Positions 2,665 through 12,409 of a stretch of 32,811 nucleotides of DNA are shown piece by piece (within the stretch, counting starts at the first letter, position 1; each line of letters begins with the position of its first letter). Below the pieces are notes generated by a model. That model was not told the origin of the DNA. It saw nothing but the letters and a program-made list of their open reading frames with translations, and ran no database searches. The DNA is from an uncultured Eubacteriales bacterium (lineage in GTDB: Bacteria; Bacillota; Clostridia; Oscillospirales; Acutalibacteraceae): positions 1 through 32,811 of the forward strand of contig ONCR01000014.1 in assembly GCA_900316345.1 (NCBI GenBank), given 5' to 3'. Position numbers and translations under genes: made by a program.

Positions 2665-3491
2665 CAACCTATTTCCTCTTTAATTCTGTTGCCTTCCTTC
2701 ATAAGCGCGGTAAGCGCCTCGCCGTCGCCGTTAACGATATTATATTTAAATCGCATAAGGTTAGATACAAGGTCGTCAATTTCACGCACGAGCGGCTCCC
2801 TGTTGTCAAGGAAAAGCTCCGTCCACATCTCCGCGTTTATTCTTGCAACGCGGCTGACGTCGCGGTAAGAGCCCGCAGAATAGCCGGCGTGCATAGGCGC
2901 AAGCGGCGAAAGAACATAGGAGCAGGCAAGCACGTGAGCAATCTGAGAGGTGAAAGCTATCATTTCATCGTGATGCTCAGGCGTTGTTACTACCGTTCTT
3001 GCAAAGCCCATTTGCTGAGCAAGGCCTACGAGGGCGTCGGTTTTAACGCGCGGGGTATCCTCGCTCGGCGTACAGATAAAGCTTGCGTTATCGTAAAGAT
3101 TGTCAAGGCTGTTATCATAGCCGCTTACCTCGCGTCCTGCCATCGGGTGAGCGCCGATAAAATAAAAATTAAGGTTGTGCTTTTCCATTTCGCGGCATAT
3201 TTTTGTTTTGATTCCGCAGGAATCGGTTACAATGCTGTCGCGCTTAAAGCTGTTTTTGTGTTCAAGAATAAACGGAACGATAGCGTCGGGGTAAAAATTC
3301 ACGAAGGTAATATCCGCCTCCGCCATAAGGGCTTCAAGCTCTCCCGTTTTGTCTATCACACCGTCGCGCAGCGCCTTTTCGGTCACCGAAGGCGTTCTGT
3401 TCCATCCGAGAACAGTATGGTTAGTATTCTTTTTAAGGGTTTTGGCAAGCGAGCCGCCGATTAAACCCAGGCCGCAAATTAAAACGTTCAT
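2664..3491 (-). CDS. tyrA: Prephenate dehydrogenase
   Basis: A 275-residue prephenate dehydrogenase, which oxidatively decarboxylates prephenate to 4-hydroxyphenylpyruvate, the precursor of tyrosine. The N-terminus MNVLICGLGLIGGSLA is a Rossmann dinucleotide fold (GxGxxGxS). Other family marks are TDSCGIKTKI, GAHPMAGRE and the later TSQIAHVLA. There is no C-terminal ACT domain and no fused chorismate mutase, so this is the short monofunctional form. It is the first gene of the shikimate cluster, with GGAG just upstream of the ATG and a good promoter about 35 bases further up. Tyrosine and chorismate synthesis are thus transcribed together. Confidence 0.94.
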   Translation of the reverse strand: MNVLICGLGLIGGSLAKTLKKNTNHTVLGWNRTPSVTEKALRDGVIDKTGELEALMAEADITFVNFYPDAIVPFILEHKNSFKRDSIVTDSCGIKTKICREMEKHNLNFYFIGAHPMAGREVSGYDNSLDNLYDNASFICTPSEDTPRVKTDALVGLAQQMGFARTVVTTPEHHDEMIAFTSQIAHVLACSYVLSPLAPMHAGYSAGSYRDVSRVARINAEMWTELFLDNREPLVREIDDLVSNLMRFKYNIVNGDGEALTALMKEGNRIKEEIG

Positions 3492-3524
3492 AACTTCTCC
3501 GTAATTTATAGTTATTCAGTATAT

Positions 3525-3553
3525 ATAATAATATATAAATTATAATAAGTCAA
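3525..3553 (-). promoter_or_regulatory. Promoter of the tyrA-aroBAC operon
   Basis: On the minus strand a TTGACT -35 box (3548-3553) and a TATTAT -10 box (3525-3530) are 17 bases apart. The region is very AT rich and lies just upstream of tyrA. Other TATAAT-like words occur nearby, so the exact start site is not certain. Confidence 0.65.
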
Positions 3554-3605
3554 ATTATATTATACTTATGTAATAGTTTTTTAATAATAGATTTCAGGGC
3601 AAATT

Positions 3606-3821: not shown

Positions 3822-6800
3822 TTAGAGGGTATCGTCTGCTATATCAGAGTAGATGGTATCTGTTACAGTTTTACCGCCGCTGGTATATGAATACTTAACG
3901 AAGGTTCTGTATCTTACGCGTGTGCCGCTTGCAATACTTCCTCTGTTTACAGATACGTTGATGTTTCTGTACTTAGTGCTCTTAGTATACTTAAATCTGT
4001 AAGCACCGCTGAGAGTATTGTAATTGTCAAGCTTAAGCTGGTCGGATGTGATTTCCTTATCAGCGTTGCCGAGGTATACAAGTACGCCGCACTCTACAAG
4101 AGTATTTCCTTCAGGAAGATAGAAGTTACCGTTCATTGTGAACTTAGTGTTTGTAAGAACAAGCTCTTCCTTAACATCGGTATGAGCTGTAGCGTTAACG
4201 AAGCCTTCGCTTACTGCCTCTTCATAATCCTCCTGAGTCGGATATACGATGATAGCTGTGTCGGAAGCGATGAAGTAAGTTAACTCTGAACCGATGAACG
4301 GAGTTTCGGTGTTGAATGCGTCATCGAGGTAATCCGCTCTGCCTGCGGTCCAAGCTTCATACTTGCTGCCTTCAACTACTGTGTAAGCATATACGTCAGC
4401 GTTAAGTGCAAGCGAGTTAGCGGCTGTGGAAAGCTCTTTCTTTTCGCCGTTTACATAGTAGAAGCCCTTCTTAGCCGTACGGCCCGTGCCTACCTGGCGT
4501 AAATCTGTTGCATTGAATTCAAGCTTGTCGTTATAGCCAACGCCTTCTGAAAGAGTGCTCTTCTTGAATGCGCCGTCTCTCATGATGTAAACATCAAGAG
4601 CGAAGCCTTCTGAATTATAATCAGGCTCATACATAGCTGTTACAGCCTGGCTCTTTGTGTCAGCAGTAATTACAACTGTTGTGCCGGCAGACTTGTTGTA
4701 GCCGTTGAAGTTGTAGAATGCGTATGTCGGAGCAGCAAGCTCTTTTGAATCACTGCCGTCAGCATAGTTGATAACGATGCTGTTGCTGCCTACCGTGTAG
4801 CTGTCGCCAACGTTGAGGTATTCAATAGCAACAACGTGGTTAAGGTCGTCAATGATTGAAAGCTTTGTTGTTCCGTTGGATTCTTCGTTTGAAGGCTGGC
4901 CTTCGTTAACGGTTGTGTTACCAACTACTACAAATTCAAATGTATCTGTAGGAGCAATTGTAGCTTCCTTCTGAGTTGTAACTGTTCTTGAAACATAGTG
5001 ATATGTCCACGGAACAGCCTTGCCGCTTGTTGAGCTTACGCTAATCGGTGTTCCGTAGGTCTGGTTTTCAAGAACCTGAGAAGTACCGTCAGCCTTGTTG
5101 ATTGTTACTGTATAAGGAATAGCGTTAACATGAGTCATAATCTCTTGAAGCTCGTCATCAATCTCTGCGTTTGAAGCGAAGTTGATGCCTTCAACCGGAA
5201 GATTGTTAAGAGGAGCGATGTTAACGGTTTCATAAATCTCTGCTGCAAGCTCTGTTGCAAGCGTTACTGCTTCTGCCGCGTCATAAGCGTCGGGGTCGGA
5301 TGCAGCGTTCTGCGCCATTTCAATGATATATGCCGGTGTGTAAACGTCTATATCCATTGCTGATGATGCAGGCGGTAAGCAAGCCATAATTCTGGAAGCT
5401 TCCGAAGCTATAGCCGCGTCGTCATCCTCGCTGTAAAGAGCGATTCCGCTTCTGTTAAGCTCGTGCTGAGCAGCAGCGTCGTTTTCAAGCTCATAGTAAG
5501 CTGTTGTAAGAGCAGCAAACGCCGTGTTGATTGCCTTAAGGCTTGCTGAGGTATAAACCTTATTATAATTGCTTGCGAAGTAGCTCTTAAGAGCTGTCAT
5601 AGCTGCGTCAACAGGAGCAAAGTTAGCCCACCTCTTAAGAGCAGCGTATGTTGATTTAATGTTTGCAGCGAGCTGATTGATTTCAGTCTGCTCTGCGCTG
5701 AGGCTTACGCCTGACATACCTTCAATTGATTCAATATCATTAATTGTGAGGCCAAGAGCGTCAAGGTCAGCAATGTCAAGAGCGTCGCCGTCGCCGTTTA
5801 CGAATCTTGCATAATCACGAGCACCGGAAACTAATGTGTTACCGTTGGTGTCGTAAGTCGGAGTTGCATATTTACCTGCATTTGTTCCGTCGCCGTAGAT
5901 AGCTACGTCGCCTGCTTCATAAGCAGCCTTAAATGCGTTCCAGGTATTTGTTGTATAGGTTCCGTATTCGTTTGCTGCTGTTACATCGTTGTTTGTGAGA
6001 TACTTGTTGTACCAAGCGTTGTTAGCGTGCTTAACAACAGCGCCGATATCCTTGCCTTCGTTCTGTGCCTGAGCGTGAGGTCTTGTAAGCTCAATGTTTG
6101 TTGCACAGGGGATGAGGGCTTTCCAAGCGTCGTAAAGGTTCTGATATCTTGTTACAAGAGCTGAAACAAGAGCAGAGGTTGTTACTTCTCTGTAGGTCTT
6201 GCCGCTGCCGAAATCGTTTGAAGTTGCAGCTGCAAGCTTTGTCTTAAGGTTCCGCCAGCTTGCTTCGGTGTAATCATTCTGGTCAAGAGTGTTTACAACA
6301 GCAACGAGCTCCTTAAGGTTTGACATATCAACTGTAGTAACCTTCTGGGTATATTGGTTTTCGGTTCTTTCATGGTAATAACCCTGATATACGTTCTTAG
6401 CAATCCAAAGCGAAGCACCGTCTGCCTGCCAATAGAAGGTATGGCCGAAGTAACCTGTTGCCGAATAATCGGTTGAGAAGGGAACTGTTGACCTTGAAAG
6501 GGTTACTGCGCTTGTTGCGGGAACCGAAAGGTAAGCGTTACCTGAGAAGGAGGTTGTTGAGTTATTGAATGCATAGAAGCCTGACGCAGCGGAGCAAGTA
6601 CCTTCTGCGATTGTAAGAGCGGTATCGTATGAACCGTCAGCGCTCTTACCGAAGATGAAGCCGCCGTTACCGTCGGACCTACCCTTAACACCCTGGATAC
6701 CCTGGATGCTGTAGGTACCGTTATTGGTTGTTGCGATTGAAAGGTTACCTGCGTAGGTTGCCTGCTCTGCTTCGCTGAGAGCAACGGATGTAGCCTCGCT

Positions 6801-9296
6801 CCAGGAAGCGGCGTTTGATTTATGGATTTCGCCCGAAGCGCCTGCCTGGTCGTTAATGTTTACGGCATCAAGAACCGCGTTATAGTCGCTGGCAGCGCCG
6901 GTTGCAAACTGGGTATTGCCCTGGTAGAAGTTGAAACCAACCTTACCGAGGTTAAGGTTTGCGGCGTCCTTAGTTGTTCTGAATACAACAACGTTTGTAA
7001 ATCTTGAGAAGGTGAGATACCACTTATCCTCAACCTGCTTGGGCATAAGAGTATCGGTATCGCCCTGGTTAACGATAGTACCGTTATCAAGAGCAAGGAA
7101 GGTCTTTTCAAGAGCGTCGATAATATCCTTACAATACTGGATATAGCTCTTTAATTCGGCAGCCTTTGCCTTTACGCAGCCTCTTGTAATAGCTGACGGG
7201 TCCTGAACGCCGGCAACCGTCGGGATAAGAGCTTCCTCAAAGTTGTTGTTAACGTAGTTGATACCTGCTGCAAGCGTATCGTAGTTAATGTAATCATCGG
7301 GCTTATAAAGAGTTGTATCAGCCATATCCTGAAGCATACGGGCAAGCGAATACTGGTCGCCTGTAACGTCGTTATAGGTTACAACTGCATTTCTCTTAAC
7401 CGAAAGAGCAAGGATAAGGGGCTCTAAAGCATTTTCCTGAGCGGTTACCTTGTTCTGGTTAGAGGTTGAAGCCTTCGGAAGCGAGCCTTCGTCGCCGTAG
7501 TTGGATACGGTGTAGGTTTCGCCCGTGTCGGGGTCTGTAAGAGTTGAGTTACCCCAAATTCTGTATTTAGCGTTGTTAACAGCGTTTGTGATATCCTGAA
7601 TTTCCTGAGCTGTAAAGCCGTAAGCCTGGAATTCACTAAGCGCGTCAGTAAGCTCTTCAATGTAGAGAGTGAGCTTTGTTACGTCAACTCTCTGGGTTGC
7701 CTGAAGCGTTGCGGCATGAAGGTCTGCATAAACCTCGTTAACCGTCTTTGTAGCTGCAGGAACGGAAACCGTTACTGCGTTTTCGCCCGTGCCAACCGTT
7801 ACGGAAGTTGCAGGATAGCTGAAGCTTGCTTCAAACGAATTGTTCTGGTCAAAGATTGACTGAGCATATGTGAACGCCTTTACGAACGCCTGAATACTTT
7901 CGTCAGTGTAGTTTTCAGTCTTGTTGTTAACGTTATACCATCTGCCGAGGGTTCCGCTTGTTGCAAGAGCGCCCTTCATTTCGGTAGCAAGAAGACCGTA
8001 GTAGCTTGCGTCCGCAGTCGGGGTTACATTAAGGTTATTAATATAACCGTTCATAGTGCTTGCAAGTGAGGAAGCACTCTGGGTTCCGTTCGGGTTCCAG
8101 TTCTGAGCGTTCTGAATGTTGGTAAGAAGAGTTCTTAAGCCGCCTTCAAGATAAGGATTCTCTTCGGTAATCTTGATTTTTTCTCTTAACGAAGTAGCGT
8201 TAAGAGCGTTAACAAGCTTTGCGTAGTTAAGAACCTGAATGTTAATACTAGCATTAGCCGAGCCCGCATCCTGCATACTGTCATTACCGGAAAGGCTGTA
8301 GATAGGAAGCGTGCTGTAGGTTTTATAGTCTTCTGTAAACGCCGTATTAGCGGGAATGTGCCATCCGAGATAGTTACCGATATAAAGGTAACGTTCGGCA
8401 GTACCGCCGTTGTTTGACTTTCTTGTACCTGCACCAACAGAGCCTTTACCGTTTGCCTTATCGTTCAGTGACGGGTTAGCAATAGCTGCAACAAGGTCGC
8501 GCTTATTATATCTGTTTTTAACAGCGCTCTTGATGGCTGTATCGCTGTCGCCTTCGTTTGCGCACTGATACCAGGTGTCGCCGAAATCGAACCAGTCGTT
8601 TCCGTTTACTTTAACAAGACCGATTCTACGGTTAGTCTGGTTAAATAAATTACCGCCGTTTGCGGCATAATATACCATTGCACCGATACGTGCTTCAAAG
8701 TTATTTGAGCCGTCGTAGATAATGGTTGCCTGCGGAATGAAAATTGTAAGGTCGAGTTTGTTGGCAGTCCAGCTTGTACCTGAGCTTACACTTCTCTGAA
8801 CATAGCCGAGCTGCTGATAAGTAGCAGCATAAACGTCATCGATATAAGCGTTGCCCGTACCGCCCTGAATAAGACGCTCGCCGGTATAGGTTGTAGCATC
8901 GCCGTTAATGGTTGTAAGCGAATAGTCTTCATTAAAGCCCTTGGACGAGTTAGTGGGACGGGTTGTGCCTGATTTCGGAGTCCATGTTCCCATAGCAGTT
9001 CTGGCCGTATTAAGAGTGTTGGTAGCGCTTTCAATATCAGCCTGGGTAACATCGTTTGCGCCGTAAGCGGCCTTGTCATATACCTTAACAGCATTAATGT
9101 ATGCGTTATATGCAGCAAGCATATTGGTATAAACAGTACCGTTCATCTGAGCGCGGTATGCGTCGATTTCATCGTTCAGCGCTGTAAGAACCGAGTTCGC
9201 CGCTGTTGTTGAAGCGATAGCAGCGAGAGGCGCTGAAGTCATTACCATTAATACTGCAAGAAAAACGGCAATGATTTTTGAAGAAAGTTTTCTCAT
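3822..9296 (-). CDS. Giant secreted protein of unknown function (1824 residues)
   Basis: The N-terminus is a typical Sec signal peptide: basic MRKLSSK, a hydrophobic core to about residue 25, then an AxA-type site before STTAAN. The rest is polar and rich in Ala, Asn, Thr and Tyr. It contains several helical stretches of the kind A-x-x-x-L-x-x-A (for example ATNTLNTARTAM), which resemble FIVAR-like surface repeats, and a beta-rich C-terminal third from about residue 1400. I see no LPXTG sorting motif, no SLH domain, no dockerin and no C-terminal membrane anchor, so it is probably released or held non-covalently. An AGGAGG ribosome site precedes the ATG. No catalytic motif was recognised; an adhesin or surface-layer-like role is only a guess. 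A 53-residue gene follows in the same direction. Confidence 0.9.
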   Translation of the reverse strand: MRKLSSKIIAVFLAVLMVMTSAPLAAIASTTAANSVLTALNDEIDAYRAQMNGTVYTNMLAAYNAYINAVKVYDKAAYGANDVTQADIESATNTLNTARTAMGTWTPKSGTTRPTNSSKGFNEDYSLTTINGDATTYTGERLIQGGTGNAYIDDVYAATYQQLGYVQRSVSSGTSWTANKLDLTIFIPQATIIYDGSNNFEARIGAMVYYAANGGNLFNQTNRRIGLVKVNGNDWFDFGDTWYQCANEGDSDTAIKSAVKNRYNKRDLVAAIANPSLNDKANGKGSVGAGTRKSNNGGTAERYLYIGNYLGWHIPANTAFTEDYKTYSTLPIYSLSGNDSMQDAGSANASINIQVLNYAKLVNALNATSLREKIKITEENPYLEGGLRTLLTNIQNAQNWNPNGTQSASSLASTMNGYINNLNVTPTADASYYGLLATEMKGALATSGTLGRWYNVNNKTENYTDESIQAFVKAFTYAQSIFDQNNSFEASFSYPATSVTVGTGENAVTVSVPAATKTVNEVYADLHAATLQATQRVDVTKLTLYIEELTDALSEFQAYGFTAQEIQDITNAVNNAKYRIWGNSTLTDPDTGETYTVSNYGDEGSLPKASTSNQNKVTAQENALEPLILALSVKRNAVVTYNDVTGDQYSLARMLQDMADTTLYKPDDYINYDTLAAGINYVNNNFEEALIPTVAGVQDPSAITRGCVKAKAAELKSYIQYCKDIIDALEKTFLALDNGTIVNQGDTDTLMPKQVEDKWYLTFSRFTNVVVFRTTKDAANLNLGKVGFNFYQGNTQFATGAASDYNAVLDAVNINDQAGASGEIHKSNAASWSEATSVALSEAEQATYAGNLSIATTNNGTYSIQGIQGVKGRSDGNGGFIFGKSADGSYDTALTIAEGTCSAASGFYAFNNSTTSFSGNAYLSVPATSAVTLSRSTVPFSTDYSATGYFGHTFYWQADGASLWIAKNVYQGYYHERTENQYTQKVTTVDMSNLKELVAVVNTLDQNDYTEASWRNLKTKLAAATSNDFGSGKTYREVTTSALVSALVTRYQNLYDAWKALIPCATNIELTRPHAQAQNEGKDIGAVVKHANNAWYNKYLTNNDVTAANEYGTYTTNTWNAFKAAYEAGDVAIYGDGTNAGKYATPTYDTNGNTLVSGARDYARFVNGDGDALDIADLDALGLTINDIESIEGMSGVSLSAEQTEINQLAANIKSTYAALKRWANFAPVDAAMTALKSYFASNYNKVYTSASLKAINTAFAALTTAYYELENDAAAQHELNRSGIALYSEDDDAAIASEASRIMACLPPASSAMDIDVYTPAYIIEMAQNAASDPDAYDAAEAVTLATELAAEIYETVNIAPLNNLPVEGINFASNAEIDDELQEIMTHVNAIPYTVTINKADGTSQVLENQTYGTPISVSSTSGKAVPWTYHYVSRTVTTQKEATIAPTDTFEFVVVGNTTVNEGQPSNEESNGTTKLSIIDDLNHVVAIEYLNVGDSYTVGSNSIVINYADGSDSKELAAPTYAFYNFNGYNKSAGTTVVITADTKSQAVTAMYEPDYNSEGFALDVYIMRDGAFKKSTLSEGVGYNDKLEFNATDLRQVGTGRTAKKGFYYVNGEKKELSTAANSLALNADVYAYTVVEGSKYEAWTAGRADYLDDAFNTETPFIGSELTYFIASDTAIIVYPTQEDYEEAVSEGFVNATAHTDVKEELVLTNTKFTMNGNFYLPEGNTLVECGVLVYLGNADKEITSDQLKLDNYNTLSGAYRFKYTKSTKYRNINVSVNRGSIASGTRVRYRTFVKYSYTSGGKTVTDTIYSDIADDTL

Positions 9297-9599: not shown

Positions 9600-9761
9600 G
9601 TAGGGCACGATGCCCACATCGTGCCGTTTTAATTTTCAATTTTCGTAGGGCACGATGCCCACATCGTGCCGTTTTAAATTTCCTTTTTCGTAGGGCACGA
9701 TGCCCACATCGTGCCGTTTTAATTTTCCGTTTTCGTAGGGCACGATGCCCACATCGTGCCG
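9600..9761 (+). repeat. Four tandem REP-like hairpins, 45-bp period
   Basis: Four identical 27-bp copies begin at 9600, 9645, 9690 and 9735, exactly 45 bases apart. Each is GTAG, then a 9-bp stem arm GGCACGATG, a CCCA loop, the complementary arm and a closing G. The 18-base spacers are AT rich (TTTTAATTTTC type) and similar but not identical. GTAG directly abutting a short palindrome is the arrangement known for REP sequences recognised by RAYT transposases, and such a gene lies immediately to the right. Confidence 0.9.
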
Positions 9762-9770
9762 CACCAACAC

Positions 9771-9800
9771 ACAAAAACGAACCGATATTATCGGTCCGTT
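9771..9800 (-). terminator. Terminator overlapping the end of the transposase gene
   Basis: An 11-bp stem with one mismatch (arms 9776-9786 and 9790-9800) and a 3-base loop, followed on the minus strand by GTTTTTG. The TAA stop of the transposase begins in the loop, so the last codons are part of the terminator. Confidence 0.65.
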
Positions 9801-10438
9801 TTATAATATTTATCAATTACCCATTTTAAAGGGTTTTCCTCAATATACTTGAGGTGTTTAATATAATCGTATTCATCCCTGATAATATGGTCGTAAAACC
9901 TCGGTTGCCATATTGATTTGCCTATTTCCTTCGTTACCATGGTTTTAAAACTTTTAATATCATTTGATATGCTTGTAGGGCACGATGCCCACATCGTGCC
10001 GCTTTCATATCCCTTAACTATTATCAAATGTATATGATTGGGCATAATAACATATTGCTGAATACCGGGAATTAAGGATATATGTTTTTCAACAATTTTA
10101 CCGTATTCCGTAAGCTCAGGATTCGGCACGATGTGGGCATCGTGCCCTACAGTGTCTGGGTTTTGCGGCACGATGTGGGCATCGTGCCCTACGGCGTCTG
10201 AGTTTTGCGGCACGATGTGGGCATCGTGCCCTACGGCGTCTGAGTTTTGCGGCACGATGTGGGCATCGTGCCCTACAACGTCTGAGTTTTGCGGCACGAT
10301 GTGGGCATCGTGCCCTACATTGATTCGGGATAAAATACAAGCCATATTTTTGGTGCATATTGTAATAAAATATGCACCGTTTTGTGAATAATCATAATCT
10401 TTTAAGCGTATGGGTTTTCGCTTCGGAAATTTGTTCAT
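9788..10438 (-). CDS. REP-associated tyrosine transposase (RAYT, Y1/HUH family) with in-frame hairpin repeats
   Basis: A Y1-type single-strand transposase. Seen: the N-terminal RLKDYDYSQNGAYFITICTK typical of this family, ELTEYGKIVEKHI, the metal-binding HUH motif in MPNHIHLIIV (His 135 and 137), and the C-terminal QPRFYDHIIRDEYDYIKHL plus YIEENPLKW, which carries the candidate catalytic Tyr. The ATG at 10438 fits the family start; a GTG at 10453 lies in a hairpin. At 216 residues it is longer than the usual 150-180. The excess is five tandem 14-residue units (VGHDAHIVPQNSDx) at residues 41-105, encoded by five GTAG hairpins on the gene strand. A sixth hairpin in the opposite sense encodes GTMWASCPT at about 147-155. 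The frame is intact throughout. No clear ribosome site was seen. Whether the protein is active is unknown. Confidence 0.85.
   Translation of the reverse strand: MNKFPKRKPIRLKDYDYSQNGAYFITICTKNMACILSRINVGHDAHIVPQNSDVVGHDAHIVPQNSDAVGHDAHIVPQNSDAVGHDAHIVPQNPDTVGHDAHIVPNPELTEYGKIVEKHISLIPGIQQYVIMPNHIHLIIVKGYESGTMWASCPTSISNDIKSFKTMVTKEIGKSIWQPRFYDHIIRDEYDYIKHLKYIEENPLKWVIDKYYKTDR
9975..10001 (+). repeat. Single REP-like hairpin inside the transposase gene
   Basis: One 27-bp copy identical to those of the neighbouring array, on the plus strand. It is read in frame on the minus strand as GTMWASCPT, just after the HUH motif. Length and position keep the reading frame open. Confidence 0.9.
10124..10318 (-). 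repeat. Five tandem REP-like hairpins inside the transposase gene, 42-bp period
   Basis: Five identical 27-bp copies, in the orientation of the gene, begin (low coordinate) at 10124, 10166, 10208, 10250 and 10292, exactly 42 bases apart. The 15-base spacers mostly read CAAAACTCAGACGNC. The period is a multiple of three, so the array encodes repeated VGHDAHIVPQNSDx without frameshift. The spacer differs from that of the 45-bp array, so the two arrays expanded separately. Confidence 0.92.
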
Positions 10439-10447
10439 ATCGTTTTT

Positions 10448-10471
10448 CGGCACGGTGCTTACACCGTGCCG
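10448..10471. repeat. Diverged hairpin between thrS and the transposase gene
   Basis: A 24-base palindrome (arm CGGCACGGTG, loop of 4) related to the REP-like stem but with changed bases and without GTAG. It sits 7 bases after the thrS stop. It has a short A run rather than a T run on the thrS-sense strand, so it is not a canonical terminator; it may still protect the thrS 3' end. Confidence 0.6.
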
Positions 10472-10477
10472 TAATAA

Positions 10478-12409
10478 TTATTCTTTATTATTTATTTCCA
10501 TTAATAGTCTGCTTAGGAATTCGTCCGCGGAGGTTACGCCCTCGTCGCCGTTTTTACGGGAACGAACGGAGATTGTATTAGCTTCAATATCCTTATCGCC
10601 TACAAGAAGCATATAAGGGATTTTTTCCATCTGTGCGGCTCTGATTTTGAAGCCGATTTTTTCGCTTCTGTCGTCAAGCTCGCAACGGATTCCCGCGTTT
10701 TCAAGCTTTTCCATAACCTCACGGCAGTAATCCTGATGTCTGTCCGCAATGGGGAGGAATTTAACCTGAACGGGAGCAAGCCAAACCGGGAAGGAGCCCA
10801 TCGTTTCCTCAATAAGATAAGCCATAAAGCGGTCAAGCGAGCCGAGAATAGCGCGGTGAAGAACAACGGGAGTATGGGGCGTATTATCCCTGTCAATATA
10901 AGTTAATTTAAATTTTGCCGGAAGGCAGAAATCAAGCTGGCAGGTTGAAAGCGTATATTCCGCGCCTACTGCAGGCTTAACGTTAACGTCAAGCTTCGGG
11001 CCGTAGAAGGCGGCTTCGCCGATTTCCTCGGTATAATCAAGGCCGAGGTCGTTTAACACTTCGCGAAGAGCGTTTTCGGCGGTATTCCACATCTCGTCGT
11101 CATCGTGGTATTTTTCCTTATCCTCAGGGTCACGAAGCGAAAGAACAAGGCGGTAATCGGTAATGTTAAAATCCTTATAAGTTTCAAATATAAGGTCAAC
11201 TACCTTTGCAAATTCGTCCTTAATCTGCTCGGGCGTTACAAAAAGGTGGGCGTCGTTCTGGCAGAAGTGGCGGCCTCTTTCAATACCCTTGAGCGTTCCC
11301 GAAGCCTCAAAGCGGAAATCGTGGGCAATTTCGCCTATTCTGATAGGAAGATTGCGGTAGGAATGGGGCTGATTTGCGTAAATTCTCATATGATGAGGGC
11401 AGTTCATCGGCCTTAAAACATAGGTTTCCTCCTCAACCTCCATAGCCGGGAACATATTATCCTTATAGTGGTCCCAGTGGCCCGAGGTTTTATAAAGGTC
11501 AACCGTGCCTACGCAGGGGGTTAAAACGTGCTGATAGCCCGATTTAATCTCTTTATCCCTAATATAGTTTTCAAGAATTCGCCAAAGAGTGTAGCCCTTG
11601 GGAAGGAACATCGGCATTCCCCTGCCTACAAGCTCATCCGTCATAAACAGGCCGAGGTCGTGGCCGAGCTTTCTGTGGTCGCGCATTTTGGCTTCCTCAA
11701 GCTTTTGAAGGTATTCGTCAAGCATTTCCTTCTTCGGGAAGGCAATTCCGTAAATTCTCTGAAGCGCTTTTCCCTTTGAATCGCCGCGCCAGTAAGCAGC
11801 GTTATTGCTTATAAGTGCAAAGGCGTTTGCCTTTACAGCTCCGGTCTTAAAAATGTGCGGTCCGGCGCAGAGTTCCGTAAATTCTCCCTGCCTGTAAAAG
11901 CTTATAGCTTCACCCTTATCGGCGTGTTCCTTAATAAGCTCAATCTTATACGGCTCGCCTTTTTCCTCCATAAGCGCGATTGCTTCATTAACGGGAAGCT
12001 CAAAACGCTCAAGCTCAAGGTTTTCTTTAATGATTTTCTTCATTTCGTCGGTGATTTTATCCAAATCCTCGGGCGAAAAGGTGTTTTCAACGTCAAAGTC
12101 GTAATAAAATCCGTTTTCAATAGCCGGGCCGATAGTAAGCTTTGCGTCGGGATAAAGGCGTTTAACCGCCTGCGCCATAATATGCGAAGCCGTATGGTTA
12201 TACGCTTTTTTTCCGTCCTCGTCCTCAAAGGTGAGAATTTCAAGCGAAGCATCGTCGCTGATAAGCGTTCTTAAATCCGCAACCGTGCCGTTGATTTTGC
12301 ACGCGCAGGCGTTGCGGAAAAGCCCCATAGAGATATCCTTACAGATATCCGCTGCGGTTTTCGGCTCGGAATAATTAAGAATACTTCCGTCTTTTAATGT
12401 GATGTTCAT
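10478..12409 (-). CDS. thrS: Threonyl-tRNA synthetase
   Basis: A 643-residue class II synthetase that charges tRNA-Thr. Domains in order: TGS (from MNITLKDGSIL, about 1-62); the second N-terminal editing domain with HTASHIMAQAVKRLYP and the Cys/His region near ELCAGPH; the catalytic core with motif 2 (RFEASGTLKGIERGRHF), the zinc-binding NCPHHMRIYA, and motif 3 around LHRAILGSLDRFMAYLIEE; and the C-terminal anticodon-binding domain from about 540. Length is that of the family. The ATG at 12409 follows GGAGG. Expression is controlled by the T-box leader upstream. Confidence 0.98.
   Translation of the reverse strand: MNITLKDGSILNYSEPKTAADICKDISMGLFRNACACKINGTVADLRTLISDDASLEILTFEDEDGKKAYNHTASHIMAQAVKRLYPDAKLTIGPAIENGFYYDFDVENTFSPEDLDKITDEMKKIIKENLELERFELPVNEAIALMEEKGEPYKIELIKEHADKGEAISFYRQGEFTELCAGPHIFKTGAVKANAFALISNNAAYWRGDSKGKALQRIYGIAFPKKEMLDEYLQKLEEAKMRDHRKLGHDLGLFMTDELVGRGMPMFLPKGYTLWRILENYIRDKEIKSGYQHVLTPCVGTVDLYKTSGHWDHYKDNMFPAMEVEEETYVLRPMNCPHHMRIYANQPHSYRNLPIRIGEIAHDFRFEASGTLKGIERGRHFCQNDAHLFVTPEQIKDEFAKVVDLIFETYKDFNITDYRLVLSLRDPEDKEKYHDDDEMWNTAENALREVLNDLGLDYTEEIGEAAFYGPKLDVNVKPAVGAEYTLSTCQLDFCLPAKFKLTYIDRDNTPHTPVVLHRAILGSLDRFMAYLIEETMGSFPVWLAPVQVKFLPIADRHQDYCREVMEKLENAGIRCELDDRSEKIGFKIRAAQMEKIPYMLLVGDKDIEANTISVRSRKNGDEGVTSADEFLSRLLMEINNKE

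Follow-up and report, generated by a model that had tools for sequence, protein, structure and literature searches.

The closest described systems are the tnpA-REP genes of RAYT subclass 2.4, which is group 4 of Bertels (Quentin 2018, PMC6006769). In that paper's account, the subclass is defined by an HUH motif of the form NH[IFV]H, a WQ motif, and a Y motif of the form YIxNNP; it has an 8-residue insertion at the end of helix B and a variable insertion, made of REPs, between beta3 and helix C. The in-frame REPs of these genes generally lie between the HUH and Y motifs and were considered peripheral. For double-foot REPs, the same paper proposes an origin from inverted REPs through a deletion of the central part.

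In the REPtrons and REPINs described for E. coli and Pseudomonas (PMC8266576, PMC3116915), a RAYT gene lies near GTAG-tagged REPs, and there are inverted REP pairs. Both features recur here, but in the described systems the REPs flank the gene, whereas here the coding sequence itself contains a matched pair, placed around the segment with the HUH motif. E. coli TnpA-REP is described as recognizing REPs strand specifically, with the GTAG strand recognized as a single strand and with a role for irregularities in the stem (PMC8266576); for the locus studied here, we only infer such recognition. REPs also occur inside genes of many functions (Di Nocera 2013, PMC3733652), and, like the in-gene REPs and the Rickettsia palindromic elements treated in that paper, the repeats considered here are palindromic and lie in frame in a coding sequence. 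There, however, the repeats are in many unrelated genes, whereas here the host gene encodes the repeat's presumed enzyme, and the sites and the sense are fixed. IS200/IS605 elements, such as IS608 and ISDra2, share the HUH Y1 transposase fold and have hairpins beside a guide tetranucleotide (PMC6006769, PMC8266576). Unlike the hairpins here, theirs bound the element outside the gene. We know of no dispersed REP family of an IS200/IS605 element that has copies in the gene.

The window, that is, the whole stretch of 32,811 nucleotides that we analyzed, contains 10 copies of GTAGGGCACGATGCCCACATCGTGCCG, a 27-nucleotide GTAG hairpin, at 9600-10318. All 10 were exact in an exact-match scan, and 100 dinucleotide shuffles had 0 copies. 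Five copies are on the plus strand; the five on the minus strand have a period of 42. Six of the 10 units are inside a minus-strand open reading frame (9788-10453), and the other four are outside the gene (Table 1). We refer to the five tandem units that precede the HUH motif, in coding sense, as S1 and to the single unit just after the HUH motif, in the opposite sense, as S2. Each S1 unit translates to VGHDAHIVP; a 5-residue spacer follows four of the five, and the fifth runs into NPELTEYGK. S2 encodes the stretch GTMWASCPT, after NHIH. The reading frame is open through all six hairpins. These results confirm what the first-pass annotation had described: 10 identical hairpins, six of them in coding sequence (five in tandem and one inverted), and an intact frame. 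Comparison with paralogues indicates that the likely start codon is the ATG at 10438 and not the GTG at 10453. Counted from that ATG, 39 bases separate the RAYT gene from the thrS open reading frame, which is upstream on the same strand, and downstream of the RAYT stop codon is a second tandem array, with four units and a period of 45, which the first-pass annotation had not described as such. The count of five in S1 should be taken with caution because the assembly is fragmented (129 contigs) and two of the four 15-nucleotide spacers are identical. Within 3 mismatches, the S1 spacer was found nowhere in the genome beyond the four places in this array.

Table 1. Features of the RAYT locus, in window coordinates
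Feature	Position	Strand	Basis or comment
RAYT gene	9788..10438	-	likely ATG 10438 (ORF tool: GTG 10453); stop codon 9788-9790
S1 unit 1, first in gene order, VGHDAHIVP	10292..10318	-	exact copy
S1 unit 2	10250..10276	-	exact copy
S1 unit 3	10208..10234	-	exact copy
S1 unit 4	10166..10192	-	exact copy
S1 unit 5, last before inner segment	10124..10150	-	exact copy
Inner segment (S1 to S2), codes first long helix and HUH strand	10002..10123	-	ORF, structure model
MPNHIH codons (HUH motif)	10028..10045	-	ORF, paralogue alignment
S2 hairpin, GTAG on the gene's template strand, part of GTMWASCPT	9975..10001	+	exact copy
YIEENP codons (presumed catalytic tyrosine motif)	9830..9847	-	ORF, paralogue alignment
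Downstream array unit nearest the RAYT stop codon	9735..9761	+	exact copy
Downstream REP array unit	9690..9716	+	exact copy
Downstream REP array unit	9645..9671	+	exact copy
Downstream array unit farthest from the RAYT gene	9600..9626	+	exact copy
REP-like palindrome without GTAG, between thrS and likely RAYT start	10448..10471	.	overlaps alternative GTG start

Compared with subclass 2.4 as described in PMC6006769, the window case is alike in its NHIH and WQ motifs, in the variable REP insertion between the HUH strand and helix C, in having in-frame REPs, and in the occurrence of double-foot REPs. It differs in that REPs occupy two fixed sites, one of them before the HUH motif, in opposite sense and matched within each gene; in coming mostly from Clostridia; in having five tandem units at one site; and in having YIEENP instead of YIxNNP. 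In the passages of Quentin 2018 that we consulted (PMC6006769), we found no mention of the S1 site as a REP, of a fixed and matched pair in opposite sense, of a fivefold array, or of deletions that remove the HUH motif and leave a double-foot palindrome. The window case belongs to a published kind, in-frame REPs in subclass 2.4 genes (PMC6006769), and we do not claim that the matched two-site pair is unpublished.

By profile comparison and structure model, the window protein is RAYT-like, with a predicted HUH and single-tyrosine Y1 transposase fold related to E. coli TnpA-REP. It scored 66 bits against the RAYT model NF047646, under the cutoff of 80, and 12.8 bits against Pfam's Y1_Tnp, under the cutoff of 23. 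The E. coli RAYT 4er8 was the best PDB match both by profile (E = 9.9e-14) and by fold (E = 2.1e-5, with a modest TM-score of 0.39 by query and 0.51 by target), which bears out the earlier reading of the gene as a RAYT, in the sense of RAYT-like. NHIH and WQ motifs are present in the window protein and in four aligned paralogues, and the Y motif in these proteins is YIEENP, YIDDNP, or YIDENP, which resembles YIxNNP but lacks its NNP. From established knowledge of the family, we take YIEENP to be the catalytic tyrosine motif. The structure model has a mean pLDDT of 76 and a confident core. In this model, S1 falls between a strand (residues 26-34) and the first long helix (116-125), and S2 falls between a strand (140-147) and a helix (160-177). 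The residues encoded by the S1 array and by S2 are low-confidence predicted loops (pLDDT of about 50); for the array, this was a check that the first-pass annotation had proposed. The array also had matches to a Pfam ice-binding beta-roll (E = 0.0047) and to an NCBIfam model of the adhesin Ata (E = 0.073), both below cutoff, which we took to be chance matches to the 14-residue repeat.

The 27-nucleotide unit is dispersed in its own genome, and is not confined to this locus: with up to 3 mismatches it occurs at 33 places, 23 of which are outside the window. Absence of the repeat from the rest of the genome, which the first-pass annotation had listed as part of what would speak against its view, is therefore not what we see. 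Two of those 23 are inside a broken RAYT gene on contig C126. Ten of the 23 share the left context TCCGTATCAATT (on contigs C19, C43, C51, C52, C56, C57, C65, C70, C105, and C115); these belong to a REPIN-like or MITE-like element of roughly 100 nucleotides that joins the unit, head to head, to all or part of a second REP type. Because several copies are at contig ends, the assembly probably undercounts them.

The genome has six RAYT loci (identified with NF047646), of which five are intact and the sixth is the broken gene on C126. All six have a hairpin at S1, in coding sense, and a hairpin at S2, in the opposite sense. The hairpins fall in four sequence types, and within each gene S1 and S2 are alike or identical. 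Including the copies inside RAYT genes, the four types have 33, 17, 66, and 8 matches in the genome (with at most 3, 3, 2, and 2 mismatches, respectively); two of the 17 are second readings of the same palindromes. Since the RAYTs of this genome carry their own dispersed REP types, the hairpins of the window gene look cognate. The C126 paralogue (L010, positions 1215-1900) lies between rplA and rplJ and has one S1 and one S2 hairpin, both identical to the 27-mer of the window. The end parts of the window gene and this paralogue are 65-67% identical; the 27-nucleotide units are identical at both sites. At a seventh place, on contig C75 (L145), all that remains of the gene is the amino-terminal part and S1. 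L145 and L144 (G018:C11) are both RAYT remnants that break off shortly after the S1 hairpin.

For other genomes, GTDB gave 456 candidate loci, of which we scanned the best 80; these are the nearest relatives and not an unbiased sample. A motif search found the gene in 78 of the 80; with the five intact genes of the window's own genome, this gave 83 genes. S1 was present in coding sense in 62 of these and in antisense in 2, and S2 was antisense in 70 and in coding sense in 2. Both hairpins were at the expected sites in 60 of the 83 genes, one was in 12, and neither was in 11, so the pair is dispensable for some relatives. Genes of one lineage are not independent in this sample. In the usual arrangement GTAG faces outward at both ends, as in a REPIN. 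When codons were shuffled synonymously, both hairpins were present in just 0.06% of 1660 gene-shuffles. The two loci that the motif missed (L066 and L103) are outside these counts; read directly, each has hairpins at both sites. In L103 (positions 2970-3560), both inner hairpins are lengthened to about 45 nucleotides and have inner stems that differ; a single gene can thus change stem length at S1 and S2 alike.

Within the genus, 24 of 60 genomes (the window's own included) had a RAYT match at E of 1e-10 or better, and both hairpins were present in 27 of the 34 HUH-bearing open reading frames that passed the motif filter, from 49 loci scanned. One locus that we considered as an inner deletion, G004:C355, was rejected: it has the HUH motif and both hairpins, with its parts in different frames. 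The first-pass annotation had pictured an invasion particular to the window gene, which is not supported, as the places and orientations of S1 and S2 are common to most of the nearest relatives scanned. For the same reason, we view the hairpins as old, maintained parts of the gene.

In a phylum-wide control of 30 loci, 0 of 28 RAYT-like genes had hairpins at the places of S1 and S2 (a first motif gave an open reading frame in 15 of the 30 loci and a wider motif in 28, all but L164 and L169). These controls are mostly longer proteins with other motifs, and we judged them to be of another subclass. L181 (168 residues, with NHIH and YIRENP) looks close to the clade and has no inner hairpin and 11 GTAG hairpins within 1.2 kb; it counts against universality of the inner pair. 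Plasmid searches of the database gave 4 records each, and a phage search gave 1. We inspected the plasmid-search records from Leptolinea, Spirosoma, Klebsiella, and Monoglobus. The first three have no hairpins inside the RAYT region; in the Monoglobus record, S2 falls within the gene as annotated, and the S1 hairpin, identical to it, precedes the start codon given in the annotation.

The two hairpins of a gene resemble each other far more than they resemble those of other genes. Across the 60 genes with both sites, the average S1-S2 edit distance was 1.47 within genes and 8.27 between genes, and the lowest value in 300 permutations was 7.17. Beyond the shared GTAGGG, S1 and S2 were 0.91 identical in one group (n = 44) and 0.93 identical in another (n = 12), as compared to permuted maxima of 0.68 and 0.81. 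The hairpin detector requires paired stems, so covariation within the stems is partly by construction, but the match between S1 and S2 is not. In the comparison of L110 with L134, the ends of the genes are 86% and 77% identical in DNA and the inner part is 65% identical, but 11 edits separate the S1 hairpins, and the two genes have different hairpin types at S1 and at S2. In such comparisons, the two hairpin sites of a gene switch together. Homogenization is incomplete: a lineage comprising C47b (from the window's own genome), L119, L122, L149, and L154 keeps slightly and stably different hairpins, with GGCTGACG.. at S1 and GGGCGACG.. at S2, and the two hairpins of L110 also differ from each other. 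A close copy of the hairpin (at most 2 mismatches) was present within 1.5 kb for only 17 of the 60 genes, versus 0 of 60 in the control.

A REPIN consists of two inverted REPs with GTAG outward and is mobile as a unit. The orientation agrees here, but none of the six family matches in the window's own genome is an orphan inner segment, and there was no clear excess of inner over outer identity that would mark the inner segment as a mobile or exchanged unit. The latter comparison covered 78 genes, namely the 60 genes with both sites and 18 genus genes (a stricter filter than for the 27 above). There are a few exceptional pairs, such as L044 with L102, whose identity is 0.83 in the inner part and 0.60 in the outer part.

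The mismatches in the stems point to what is conserved. On the GTAG strand, the S1 stems of 62 genes have 23 purine-purine, 0 pyrimidine-pyrimidine, 7 G.T, and 0 A.C mismatches, and the S2 stems of 70 genes have 24, 0, 10, and 0, respectively. As related genes are not independent, these numbers count genes and not events. With every mismatch at S1 and S2 being purine-purine or G-T when read on the GTAG strand, it seems to be the REP DNA that is constrained, and not the peptide or the mRNA; the messenger does not explain the asymmetry, as the GTAG strand at S2 is the template strand. The pattern is as expected if the REP strand that a RAYT recognizes is what is kept. Within the class of 26-nucleotide hairpins, stem positions 7-9 show three to four Watson-Crick types (with a detector that favors paired stems). 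The peptides encoded by the hairpins differ from gene to gene. Homologues that conserve VGHDAHIVP without a DNA hairpin, which the first-pass annotation had named as evidence against its view, are not what we found: hairpins are kept while the peptides differ.

We think it probable that a permanent cognate REP pair is built into this subclass-2.4-like RAYT gene and locks the gene and its REP family together. The sequence comparisons that support this are the constancy of both sites and of their orientations in most nearest relatives scanned, the near-identity within genes, the matching dispersed REPs, the joint switching, the strand-specific mismatches, and the absence of the HUH segment from some relatives. 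In the mechanism that we propose, a REPIN-like pair with GTAG at both outer ends frames the HUH-coding segment, and the RAYT protein would recognize the GTAG strand of the inner hairpins while its own gene is single stranded; a RAYT that recognizes its own gene's GTAG strand would stay locked to its REP family. What renews the match in DNA may be selection that favors hairpins fitting the protein, conversion by other REPs, or both. An active role for the built-in pair, in regulation or as a substrate in cis, is a tentative proposal that we rate at somewhat below even; we favor self-recognition or a self-limiting role. A stronger form, in which the RAYT gene is the master REPIN of its REP family, so that the protein uses the pair as a cis substrate or DNA operator and families switch along with the gene's pair, is possible, though we lean against it. 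In that form, enzyme and recognition sequence would be inherited as one unit, and the sequence of each gene would tell which hairpin its protein recognizes, which would amount to a recognition code for many RAYTs.

A gene that carries its own target would bear on two questions: what keeps RAYTs matched to their REP families, and for what reason these transposases are retained. If this is true of each gene of the clade, then enzyme-target pairs can be read from the gene sequence alone; hairpin recognition could be studied in many natural pairs, and coevolution could be tested directly.

The main rival is that the hairpins are tolerated passengers: a RAYT inserted REPs into two surface loops of an ancestor, where they are harmless and are refreshed by conversion from genomic REPs. 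Quentin 2018 offers such a view (PMC6006769), and several species are known to have REPs in genes. In its favor, the structure model places S1 and S2 in low-confidence loops that are not part of the core, and the hairpins of the broken C126 gene are still perfect. However, passengers should vary in place and sense and should decay, whereas place, sense, and the mismatch chemistry of the GTAG strand are kept even as stem sequences change, and both sites switch together. We consider the passenger explanation a possible but doubtful one.

Alternatively, the constraint could be in the messenger, where S1 and S2 might pair as one long stem that limits RAYT translation or mRNA stability. The two sites are inverted, and the match between them is what a long stem would need; the S1-S2 messenger stretch of C47a, the only one that we folded, forms a long stem (-80 kcal/mol, z = -8.5). 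Against this, the S2 mismatches become pyrimidine-pyrimidine or A.C in mRNA, whereas a constraint on the messenger would favor G.U. Also, both outer ends retain GTAG, and each of the four hairpin types that we searched for recurs as a dispersed REP. Control by mRNA structure therefore seems unlikely, and a REP pair that is conserved as DNA remains our preferred reading.

The view of the first-pass annotation, a recent invasion of the window gene by its own REPs, is very unlikely for the pair, as hairpins are at the same places in most relatives scanned; it stands only for the expansion of the array. In L110 and L111, the closest relatives outside this genome, S1 is a single unit, versus five in the window gene, so unit number does vary between relatives, a point that the first-pass annotation had proposed to check. 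Among the 78 genes, tandem S1 units are present in the window gene (5), L033 (2), and L044 (2). In the genus scan, L124 has two S2 units. The fivefold array is in none of the other genes examined. Only the multiplication of S1 looks recent or peculiar to the window gene, and S1 probably reached its five units through tandem duplications whose lengths are multiples of three bases. Last, it is barely credible that the hairpin-coded loops (VG.....P and ....PT) are functional protein elements that palindromes encode by chance: S1 is read in one frame in 66 of 68 units, with VG at its start, but this bias is partly explained because one of the other two frames turns TAG into a stop codon, and the peptides vary widely between genes, S2 is read in two frames (in 59 and 11 genes), and the hairpins are rare under synonymous recoding.

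The hairpin repeats would also expose the RAYT gene to slippage deletions in which the HUH motif is lost and a double-foot palindrome is left. In two alleles, G028:C7 and G049:C24, the entire stretch from S1 to S2 is gone, the HUH motif included, and a perfect double-foot palindrome (GTAG...CTAC) remains. Slippage between like-oriented arms of the two hairpins would be a simple route to these scars; action of the RAYT is possible but not needed. Both alleles fit the central-deletion proposal of Quentin 2018 (PMC6006769). They illustrate how the active site of a RAYT gene can be lost, probably in a single step, and how an inverted REP pair can give rise to double-foot palindromes. In three other alleles (G050:C2, G009:C35, and G051:C94), the inner part is absent and there is no double-foot palindrome. 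A third perfect double-foot palindrome is inside the RAYT match of L127, at position 1581.

Two observations concern the neighbors of these genes. In the window, an open reading frame of 1824 residues (3822-9296) follows the RAYT locus in the same orientation; its start is signal-like, and it has no match in Pfam at E of 1e-5. Each of four RAYT genes of this genome (L011, L012, L013, and the window gene) immediately follows another gene in the same orientation, an arrangement that would suit expression by read-through. The Pfam domains of the upstream genes are those of aldolase class II, argininosuccinate lyase, Fe-alcohol dehydrogenase, and threonyl-tRNA synthetase (the last at 10478-12409 in the window).
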